A stretch of DNA of 64,000 nt from an uncultured Pelagibacteraceae bacterium. GTDB taxonomy: Bacteria; Pseudomonadota; Alphaproteobacteria; Pelagibacterales; Pelagibacteraceae. The position numbers were made by a program, and so were the translations under genes. Shown piece after piece: positions 45,301 through 48,737 of the stretch (the stretch's first letter is position 1; each line of letters opens with the position of its first letter). Where the stretch lies: positions 39,311 through 103,310 of the forward strand of contig CACEDU010000005.1 in NCBI GenBank assembly GCA_902558435.1. Reading direction: 5' to 3'. The notes beneath the pieces are model-generated. The model did not search any database. It saw only the letters and a list, made by a program, of their open reading frames with translations, and had not been told where the DNA came from.

Positions 45301-45721
45301 AAAAGGAACTTCTTATGCAATTATTAAATTTTCTGATTTATCTGGTGTTTTTGAATTATTTGTATTTTCAGATGTATTTGAGACAAATAGAGAAATATTA
45401 ATTGAAGGTAATTCTGTAATGGTTACTTTAGTTAAAAATTATCAAGATGAAAACAAAATACAAAAAAAAATTAATATAAGAAAAATTATTTCTATGAAAG
45501 AAGTTATTGACAAACCATTAGATGAAGTAACAATCAAAATTAAAAAGATAGATGATATTGCAAAAATTAATAAATTAAGTTTAGAAGCAGGCAAAACTAA
45601 AGTGATAATAGATGTTGAGGTTGATAAAAAAAGGATGTCTTTTCAATTGAATGAAAAAAGAAAAATAGATCACAAAATGCTTAATTTAATGAGAAATGAG
45701 GAAAATATTGATGTTCTCTAA
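42320..45721 (+). CDS. dnaE: DNA polymerase III alpha subunit
   Basis: PHP domain, VGPGRGSGAGSLVAW, PDFDIDFCEEKRDQV; start MPELKKSF at 42320 preferred. Confidence 0.97.
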   Translation: MPELKKSFNQIKIHSQYSICEGALKIENLKEYCKKNKIQSVGLSDTYNLSGALEFSESISSVGTQPIIGSQVQFRFKNTYGLIPLIAKNYIGYKNIIELSSKAYLEIADTDDPHCLIDDLIKYSDGIIVLSGAVNNLIGNIFNKGLTDEIDELIKLLKNNFKENFYLEIQRHGDKNEKEFEIFNLNLSKKYQIPIIATNEVYYLNKEMHEAHDALMCIGQKTYINDQKRLKLTDNHYFKSSAEMSEIFKDLPEALENNYNLPYRCDFRPITSKPILPNISTNITSVDDKLKKDSFDGLEEKFKKDPELIKKISNNIDIIENYKDRLNHEIKIITEMNYSGYFLIVSDYIKWAKDNNIPVGPGRGSGAGSLVAWCLSITDVDPIKFNLIFERFLNPDRISMPDFDIDFCEEKRDQVFKYLTTKYKDSVAHIITFGKLKARMVIRDVGRVLGLPYGFIDSICKMIPFDPSRPLTLQESINVEPRLQKLINEDKRVSRLMELSLKLEGLNRNVATHAAGVVIADKKLTETVPLYRDSSADLLLPSTQFDMYSAENAGLVKFDFLGLKTLTVINKSQKLIEKKHPNFKIETINYEDQKVFDLLSSGKTVGLFQLESSGMKDALINMKPNHLEDIIALVALYRPGPMSNIPIYNDCKHGKREPDYLHPKLEEILKPTYGVIIYQEQVMQIAQVLSGFTAGEADILRRAMGKKKRAELEKQKERFIEGAHNNGISKDIAAGIFLKIEPFAEYGFNKSHAAAYAIIAYQTAFLKTYYPHEFFAASMSMELSNQKKLSEFYEELKRLDINIIRPDINKCYADFSSDGKNFLYALGAIKSVGFEAISNIVKERTKNGKYKDLTDFINRVNPKDINKLQLEGLVKAGAFDNLNKNRQSLYNSIPNIILKSKNIFENNSANQIDLFKEENDMTYLEIVQDWNIDIKLSKEFETLGFFISDHPLHQYKSLFNQYNIIDYEEFNSNENILSSNIASTILKVQEKKTQKGTSYAIIKFSDLSGVFELFVFSDVFETNREILIEGNSVMVTLVKNYQDENKIQKKINIRKIISMKEVIDKPLDEVTIKIKKIDDIAKINKLSLEAGKTKVIIDVEVDKKRMSFQLNEKRKIDHKMLNLMRNEENIDVL

Positions 45722-45738
45722 AAAAAACTTGTTTTTTT
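45721..45738 (+). terminator. All A/T-stem hairpin at the dnaE stop codon (possible terminator)
   Basis: A7-CTTG-T7, then CTCC and another T7 run. Confidence 0.35.
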
Positions 45739-45798
45739 CTCCTTTTTTTGTAAATAGTTCCATAAATTAATACGCACACAATTTCTGGTTTTATACCT

Positions 45799-45840
45799 CC
45801 GGTCCTTTTTAGGCAGTAATTGTGGTGGCACAACCGGGAA
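45799..45840 (+). promoter_or_regulatory. rpsB (ribosomal protein S2) 5' leader structured RNA candidate
   Basis: Nested stems: CCGGT(45799-803)/ACCGG(45833-837), CCT-TTTT-AGG (45804-813), TGTG-GTGG-CACA (45821-832); GGGA lies in the closing 3' strand, 7 nt before the rpsB ATG. Confidence 0.75.
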
Positions 45841-45845
45841 AAAAT

Positions 45846-46634
45846 ATGAAAATACCAAATCTTACAATAGAACAATTATTAGAAGCTGGCGTACATCTAG
45901 GCCACAAAACATTGAGATGGAATCCAAAAATGAAAAAATTTATTTTTGGCAAAAGAGACTCTATTCACATTATAGATTTAACTCAAACTCTAGAACTAAC
46001 TAAAACTGCACTTGAAAAGGTTTATTCAACTATCTCATCTGGTGGTAAAATTTTATTTATTTCTACTAAAAAACAAGCATCTGAGGCAATAGCTGATTTA
46101 GCAAAAGATACAGATCAATTTTATGTAAATTATAGATGGTTAGGTGGAATGTTAACTAATTGGGGAACAATATCTAATTCAATAAAAAAATTGGATAAAA
46201 TTGAGTTAGACCTTCAATCTGAAAACAGAGGATTTACAAAAAAAGAATTATTGAAAATGAGTGGGCAGAGAGATAAATTGCAAAGATCGTTAGGTGGAAT
46301 TTCATCCATGAAAAAAATTCCTGATCTTGTATTTATAATTGACACAAACTATGAGTCACTAGCAATAAAAGAGTCTATAAAATTAGGTATACCAATTATA
46401 GCAGTTTTGGATACAAATTCAGATCCTGATGGTATTGATTTTCCTATACCAGGAAATGATGATGCGAGAAGATCAATTGATTTATATTGTAATTTGTTAA
46501 AAGAAACAATTTTAAATGCAAAAAAAGAAAATCCTCAAAATAATAGCGTTGAAAATCCAATAGCTGAAGAAAAAAATGATATTTCAAAAGAATTAAAAAA
46601 AGAGGAAATTTCAAAAGATGCAAAATTAAATTAA
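45846..46634 (+). CDS. rpsB: 30S ribosomal protein S2
   Basis: LLEAGVHLGHKTLRWNPKMKKFIFGKR...VDNRWLGG-like; ATG at 45846. Confidence 0.97.
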   Translation: MKIPNLTIEQLLEAGVHLGHKTLRWNPKMKKFIFGKRDSIHIIDLTQTLELTKTALEKVYSTISSGGKILFISTKKQASEAIADLAKDTDQFYVNYRWLGGMLTNWGTISNSIKKLDKIELDLQSENRGFTKKELLKMSGQRDKLQRSLGGISSMKKIPDLVFIIDTNYESLAIKESIKLGIPIIAVLDTNSDPDGIDFPIPGNDDARRSIDLYCNLLKETILNAKKENPQNNSVENPIAEEKNDISKELKKEEISKDAKLN

Positions 46635-46657: not shown

Positions 46658-47509
46658 ATGAGTGAAATTGAGAAAGTTAAACAATTAAGAAAATCAACTG
46701 GTGCAGGTTTTAAAGACTGCAATTCAGCATTAAAAGAGTCAAATGGAGATCTGGATAAAGCAGCAGAAATTTTAAGAGTTAAAGGTATTGCAAAAGCTTC
46801 AAAAAAAATGTCTAGAAATGCAAATGAGGGGGTAGTTGTAGTTTCAGGTAATGAAAAGAAAATGTCCATCATTGAAGTTAATTGTGAAACAGATTTTGTT
46901 GCAAAAAACGATGATTTTATTGAATTCGTAAAAGAACTTAGCGAATTAAACAATACTCACTCATCAAGTATTGAAGATGTTAAAAAAGCCTCAATGAAAA
47001 ATAAAAAAACTGTTGATGAAAATCTAGTAGCATTAATAGCAAAGATTGGAGAAAAAATAACAATTGGGAGATCGAAAACTTTTAATAAAGAAAATTCTAA
47101 AAATTATTTTTACCAACATTCTGTAATAAAAGATAATGTTTCTAAATTAATAGTTATCGTCTCTTTAAATACAACTGAAAAATCTGAAAAAATTGATTTA
47201 TTTGGCAAACATTTATCTATGCATATTGCTGCCTCTAATCCGATTGCTTTAACATCAGATTTAATTGATAAAGAATTATTGAATAAAGAGGCTGATTTAA
47301 TAGCTGAAGAATTAAAAAATTCTGGAAAACCAGAAGAAATTGCAAATAAAATAAGTTTGGGTAAGATTAATAAATTTAAAGATGAAAATAGCTTATTAAC
47401 ACAAGATTGGGTGATGGATACTAAAATGAAAGTGCATGAAGTATTAAAAAATTTAGAAATTCCAAATTTAAGTATCGGTGAATTTATTAGATTAAAAATA
47501 GGTGAATAA
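46658..47509 (+). CDS. tsf: Elongation factor Ts
   Basis: [32 protein letters not shown]. Confidence 0.97.
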
Positions 47510-48060
47510 TGTTTGATGAAGCTAAATACAACAATAAAATGTTGAAAACATATGATGTATTTAATCAGGAATTAGGATCCTTGAGAACTGGTAGAGCTAA
47601 TACTAATATGCTGGATATTGTTAAAGTAGATGTATACGGGCAAAAAATGCCAATAAATCAGCTAGGGAGTGTTACAACACCCGAACCTAGAACAATAAAT
47701 ATTCAAGTATGGGACTTGAATAATGTAAATCTAATTGACTCTGCAATAAAAAAATCTGAATTGGGTCTTAATCCACAAATTGAAGGCCAATTAATTAGAT
47801 TACCTATACCTGATTTAAGCGAGGAAAGAAGATCAGAAATGAAAAAAATAATAAAATCTATGGGTGAAAAATGTAAAGTATCAATAAGGAACATTCGAAG
47901 AGAAGCAAATGATGAACTCAAAAAATTATTAAAGGATAAAAGTATTTCTGAAGATGATGTAAAAAAAAAAGAAAAAGTAATTCAAGATTACACAGATAAC
48001 CAGGTAAAAATCATTGATGAAAGAGTAATTTCTAAAGAAAATGAAATAATGACAATATGA
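47509..48060 (+). CDS. frr: Ribosome recycling factor
   Basis: ELGSLRTGRANTNMLD, SMGEKCKVSIRNIRREAND. Confidence 0.97.
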   Translation: MFDEAKYNNKMLKTYDVFNQELGSLRTGRANTNMLDIVKVDVYGQKMPINQLGSVTTPEPRTINIQVWDLNNVNLIDSAIKKSELGLNPQIEGQLIRLPIPDLSEERRSEMKKIIKSMGEKCKVSIRNIRREANDELKKLLKDKSISEDDVKKKEKVIQDYTDNQVKIIDERVISKENEIMTI

Positions 48061-48737
48061 AATCTCCAAAACATGTTGCCATAATTATGGATGGAAATGG
48101 CAGATGGGGATTAAAAAAGAAAAAATCAAGAAATTTTGGTCATAGTGAGGGAGTAAAAACTGTCGAAAAAATTATCGAGGAATCAATTTTAAATAAAATC
48201 AAGTATTTAACACTTTATACCTTTTCAACAGAAAATTGGAAAAGACCAAAAAAAGAGATATCTTTTTTAATATATCTTCTCGAACAATACATTGACCAAC
48301 AGCTATCAAAACTTGTAAATAAAAATATTAAATTAAAAATTATTGGAAACATCAATAAATTTCCAGCTTCTTTAAAAACAAAACTTATTAAAGCAGAAAA
48401 ACTAACAAGCAAAAAAAATAAGATTCAAATTAATATAGCTCTTAATTATGGTTCAAAAGAGGAAATAATAAATTCTGTAAAAAAGACTATTAATCTATCT
48501 ATACCCATCAATGAAAAAAATATTTCACAAAATCTTTATACAAAAGATATTCCAGATCCAGAAATACTGATTAGGACTGGAAATAGATTTAGACTTAGTA
48601 ACTTTTTATTATGGCAATCTTCTTATGCTGAGATCTTTTTTGTAAAAAAATTATGGCCTGATTTTAATAAAAAGGATTTTAGAAATATTTTGGACAAATT
48701 TAAAAGTACAAGAAGAAACTTTGGTGCTCTAAAATGA
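48057..48737 (+). CDS. uppS: Isoprenyl transferase (undecaprenyl diphosphate synthase)
   Basis: HVAIIMDGNGRWG, TLYTFSTENWKRP, DPEILIRTGNRFRLSNFLLWQSSYAE. Confidence 0.97.
   Translation: MKSPKHVAIIMDGNGRWGLKKKKSRNFGHSEGVKTVEKIIEESILNKIKYLTLYTFSTENWKRPKKEISFLIYLLEQYIDQQLSKLVNKNIKLKIIGNINKFPASLKTKLIKAEKLTSKKNKIQINIALNYGSKEEIINSVKKTINLSIPINEKNISQNLYTKDIPDPEILIRTGNRFRLSNFLLWQSSYAEIFFVKKLWPDFNKKDFRNILDKFKSTRRNFGALK

Follow-up and report, generated by a model that had tools for sequence, protein, structure and literature searches.

The leader that precedes rpsB in the window (the whole stretch of 64,000 nucleotides that was analysed) is very probably the rpsB motif, RF01815, a probable operator in the mRNA for ribosomal protein S2. 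Meyer et al. described this motif in 2009 from Candidatus Pelagibacter ubique (PMC2704228); the element in the window is an orthologue of that first described example, and the leader element itself is already known for SAR11. In the published fold, P2 and P3 sit on top of a helix P1, and J2/3 forms a pseudoknot with the 3' extension that follows P1 (PMC2704228). The short, lineage-specific spacing between this pseudoknot and the start codon, described below, is one modest twist on a known element.

Position and identity of the leader

The genome that hosts the window comprises 1.32 Mb and is 91% complete. Its S2 protein is most similar, among named genomes, to those of uncultured Pelagibacteraceae (SAR11). 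The leader lies between dnaE (stop at 45721) and rpsB (ATG at 45846), which is followed by tsf, frr and uppS; in the rpsB-tsf-frr-uppS order over 46658-48737, no gene separates tsf and frr, and pyrH, the gene found between these two in E. coli, is absent from the gap. The start of tsf is 23 nt downstream of rpsB, and the two genes are likely cotranscribed. No sigma-70 promoter or terminator pattern was found in 45650-45860. A dnaE-rpsB neighbourhood is likewise described for Ca. P. ubique (PMC2704228). The features of the locus are the following:

45773-45854, + strand: leader RNA of rpsB, matching Rfam RF01815 over its full length (model positions 1-132; cmscan)
45773-45783, + strand: 5' strand of P1, CGC-A-CACAATT, with A45776 bulged (RF01815 alignment; compensatory changes on the S2-gene tree)
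45787-45797, + strand: P2 hairpin, GGT-TTTAT-ACC, 3 pairs (read by eye in the sequence, uncounted; agrees with the 3-pair P2 given for Ca. P. ubique in PMC2704228)
45799-45803, + strand: predicted 5' strand of the pseudoknot, CCGGT, in J2/3 (invariant in 99 SAR11 leaders; compensated in gammaproteobacteria)
45804-45813, + strand: P3 hairpin, CCT-TTTT-AGG, with CCT at 45804-45806 and AGG at 45811-45813 (sequence)
45818-45827, + strand: 3' strand of P1, AATTGTGGTG (RF01815 alignment; compensatory changes on the S2-gene tree)
45833-45837, + strand: predicted 3' strand of the pseudoknot, ACCGG, ending 8 nt before the ATG and overlapping GGGA 45836-45839
45846-46634, + strand: rpsB, ribosomal protein S2, 262 aa, starting at ATG 45846 (TIGR01011, 315.6 bits, above the cut-off)
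46658-47509, + strand: tsf, elongation factor Ts (TIGR00116, 242.5 bits)

The earlier note had proposed that rpsB is preceded by a structured leader whose class is known from Ca. P. ubique, with a covariance-model scan as a check. Both the class and the presence of structure are borne out by the RF01815 match, although its score of 33.2 bits (E 3.6e-5) does not reach the gathering score of 40. The match is on the + strand and its 3' limit falls around the start codon of rpsB, which places it immediately 5' of the gene. A scan of Rfam at the gathering threshold reported tRNAs only and left the leader out. At E <= 0.01, RF01815 was found in 236 of the 397 genomes of the order, only 2 of them above the gathering cut-off, and in 241 of the 385 genomes of the class, 95 of them above it. 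Since a mere 2 of 397 pass in the very lineage that yielded the first description of the motif, SAR11, the cut-off is strict for this lineage; it is a curation threshold and not a defining feature of the RNA, and its application misses nearly all SAR11 copies. The leader shares with that of Ca. P. ubique the gene, the placement between dnaE and rpsB, the P1 helix and the pseudoknot, along with putative P2 and P3 hairpins.

An open reading frame in frame with rpsB extends upstream to GTG 45822, and automatic ORF calling lengthened rpsB to this codon, that is, to a position inside P1. Were this start genuine, the region could be conserved as codons for the N-terminus of an extended S2, for which the frame is indeed open in the window. 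This explanation is hardly credible, since 55 of the 75 same-genus leaders carry an in-frame stop within the 24 nt between the position of GTG 45822 and the ATG. The extension is spurious because of these stops in relatives, and it would mask the leader in an annotation.

Fold of the leader

To compare folds, 99 SAR11 leaders (94 of them distinct) were anchored on the S2 start codon and aligned, and co-changes were counted on a tree built from the S2 coding sequence and not from the leader. P1 is paired in 95.9% of cells across the 94 distinct leaders, against 24-65% when its strands are shifted by 1-3 columns. For three P1 pairs, both sides change together on the tree in 7/7, 8/8 and 6/6 possible coincidences. 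When 1035 pairs of variable columns were scanned without preselection, the median co-change ratio was 0.25, and a ratio of 1.0 was reached only by these three pairs and by one artefact, a trivial pair inside the aligned ATG. The helix is not uniform, the innermost pair being poor (73% paired) and the second from the outside mixed (86%). One further pair of positions, 45798 (the base preceding the 5' strand of the pseudoknot) and 45816 (just 5' of the 3' strand of P1), corresponding to alignment columns 40 and 65, co-changes in 6 of 7 steps and is paired in 89% of the SAR11 leaders; it is possibly an extra pair in the junction, or mere linkage.

The CCGGT/ACCGG pairing is unchanged, and 100% paired, in 99/99 SAR11 leaders (94 distinct), with the longer CCGGTC also invariant across SAR11, and CCGGU/ACCGG recurs in 30/30 leaders of other alphaproteobacteria. 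Being invariant, the helix has no covariation support inside the SAR11 lineage, and covariation, which the earlier note had offered as a check of a closing stem, is undecidable at that level. Between classes the check succeeds, with CCGGU/ACCGG in alphaproteobacteria and GGGGU/ACCCC, UGGGU/ACCCA and CGGGU/ACCCG in gammaproteobacteria. Among 29 gammaproteobacterial leaders, collected via the t44 family (RF00127), the strands are GGGGT/ACCCC in 16, TGGGT/ACCCG in 8, CGGGT/ACCCG in 3 and TGGGT/ACCCA in 2, the E. coli leader carrying GGGGT/ACCCC. At two of the five pairs both partners differ, whether between the classes or within one of them. This comparison of sequences supports the helix as real, in the form of a predicted pseudoknot.

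P2 and P3 are both readable in the sequence but very short, too short for covariation; by eye, the CC..GG of P3 is retained in most relatives, and its loop is variable.

A different fold had been drawn in the earlier note, namely a compact three-way junction at 45775-45848 in which CCGGT/ACCGG is the closing stem, CCT-TTTT-AGG and TGTG-GTGG-CACA are the enclosed hairpins, and GGGA is hidden. Two of its three helices are common to the published fold: the CCT/AGG hairpin corresponds to the short P3, and CCGGT/ACCGG is a real helix, which in the published model links J2/3 with the strand 3' of P1 as a pseudoknot (PMC2704228) and is not a closing stem. The second hairpin is contradicted by the alignment. 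Its strands can be read in the sequence (TGTG 45821-45824 and CACA 45829-45832, with the ATG at 45846-45848), but only 74% of cells are paired, its 3' side underwent 41 changes of which one is matched, and it is incompatible with P1, the helix that covaries. P1 and P2 were missed in that drawing, and the first two bases of P1, which starts at 45773, fall outside its bounds. When 45797-45840 is folded in isolation, the three-way junction has the lowest energy, -11.5 kcal/mol; 47 of 200 shuffles reach or better this value (z -0.71), so that on energy the pairing is no better than chance. When a longer segment, 45722-45870, is folded, P1 appears and the three-way junction does not. Minimum free energy is uninformative for the fold of this leader, and RNAalifold, a method incapable of showing a pseudoknot, pairs CCGGTCC/ACCGG alone on the alignment. 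Taken with the loss of P1 that it entails, the three-way junction is very unlikely, and the fold of RF01815, P1 with the pseudoknot, is retained.

Distance from the pseudoknot to the start codon

The 3' end of the pseudoknot lies 8 nt before the ATG in 67 of the 75 same-genus leaders and 7-10 nt before it in all 75; elsewhere in the family the distance is 4-12 nt, and the sister family shows 8-10 nt. It is 7-9 nt in 80/80 SAR11 loci found by the S2 protein, some of which may belong to the same genomes as the first set of leaders. In 30 other alphaproteobacteria, drawn by RF01815 matches and thus possibly biased to the standard spacing, the distance is 13-23 nt, and in a further 19 with lower scores or small genomes it is 10-23 nt; small genomes of about 1.4 Mb from another alphaproteobacterial family (L248-L250) retain the spacer. 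Gammaproteobacteria show 11-25 nt, bar one outlier at 80, a leader that did not parse. The 8 nt of the window is thus typical of SAR11 and unlike other alphaproteobacteria. In the other alphaproteobacteria and in gammaproteobacteria, the gap is usually filled by a Shine-Dalgarno sequence such as AAGGA. Calculated with a generic anti-Shine-Dalgarno, the pairing energy 3' of the pseudoknot has a median of -5.8 in these outgroups and is about 0 or worse in SAR11. SAR11 leaders thus lack the Shine-Dalgarno spacer and, because of this, the predicted pseudoknot sits at the ribosome-binding position. The short SAR11 spacing was not encountered in the texts consulted, and the running text of PMC2704228 mentions neither a Shine-Dalgarno sequence nor a ribosome-binding site.

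The 16S rRNA of this genome ends in TTACCTCCTTTC. A Shine-Dalgarno signal of -4 or better precedes 13 of the 55 genes of the window, against 3 of 55 control positions; the system is used in this genome but is generally weak. The GGGA at 45836-45839, which the earlier note took for the only Shine-Dalgarno-like sequence, gives -4.3 kcal/mol. The observation that CCGGT/ACCGG extends into the sole candidate site for a Shine-Dalgarno is confirmed, and the distance of GGGA from the ATG, given as 7 nt, was nearly right, there being six bases between them. Nevertheless, a G after ACCGG is missing from 33 of the 99 SAR11 leaders (9/75 in the genus, 19/19 in other genera and 5/5 in the sister family), and the same place reads GGA elsewhere in the family and GGAG in the sister family, so GGGA is not a conserved feature of the leader. 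The idea that the TACCTCC of the leader imitates the 3' end of 16S rRNA (that of this genome ends in GGATTACCTCCTTTC) was also considered and was rejected, because outside the genus the sequence is CCCTACCGG, CCCTCCCGG or TGTCCGG.

Probable regulation by S2

In E. coli, S2 represses translation of rpsB-tsf through the 5' UTR, with S1 helping (PMC10931766; Aseev 2008, as cited in PMC2704228). The operator of E. coli, represented by t44 RNA (RF00127), and the leader of the window have in common the position upstream of rpsB, a P1 that continues on its 3' side into GTGGAGG, and a pseudoknot at the equivalent place, formed in E. coli by GGGGU/ACCCC. They differ in that gammaproteobacterial leaders usually have a Shine-Dalgarno after the pseudoknot, and RF00127 has no covariance-model match in this genome. 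A homologue of S1 is present; its 411.8 bits fall short of the curated cut-off of 577, a score exceeded in only 2 of 14 control genomes.

By analogy with E. coli, autoregulation by S2 through the leader is probable in SAR11. With P1 capped by the short P2 and P3, the joining strand CCGGU would pair with ACCGG just 3' of P1 to form the pseudoknot; surplus S2, probably with S1, would bind and stabilise this fold, and initiation on rpsB-tsf would be halted. In SAR11, the 3' strand of the pseudoknot covers roughly positions -13 to -9 relative to the ATG, at the site of Shine-Dalgarno pairing, so the folded state might exclude the 30S subunit. S2 as the ligand, repression as the outcome and direct occlusion as the means are all three what we infer for this lineage. 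Direct occlusion is plausible because the strand occupies the Shine-Dalgarno position, and may be suggested with some reserve; it finds no support in the best studied case, since the ribosome-binding site of E. coli is reported to lie outside the operator (PMC10931766). In the same tentative spirit, the SAR11 leader could be seen as a compacted S2 operator that has lost the Shine-Dalgarno spacer and in which, unlike in E. coli, repression would be an either/or choice between the pseudoknot and the 30S subunit. The mechanism of the E. coli operator is still described as unclear (PMC10931766); with the spacer absent throughout the lineage, SAR11 offers a naturally simplified form of it, and so a small system for testing direct occlusion by the pseudoknot.

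The leader might instead be a passive enhancer of translation or stabiliser of the transcript, and not a sensor of S2, as could be expected of streamlined genomes, which shed regulators, and of a leader whose Shine-Dalgarno spacer is absent. Such a passive role is unlikely, given the invariance of CCGGTC and ACCGG across SAR11 at a constant position before rpsB and an architecture like that of the E. coli operator, which responds to S2.

Elsewhere in the genome (L001:1501-1629; G000:C7:56320-56448), a sub-threshold match to Phe_leader (RF01859, 34.7 bits) falls at the junction of two genes, apparently for the binding protein and the permease of a sugar ABC transporter, and is probably due to chance or to an intercistronic hairpin.
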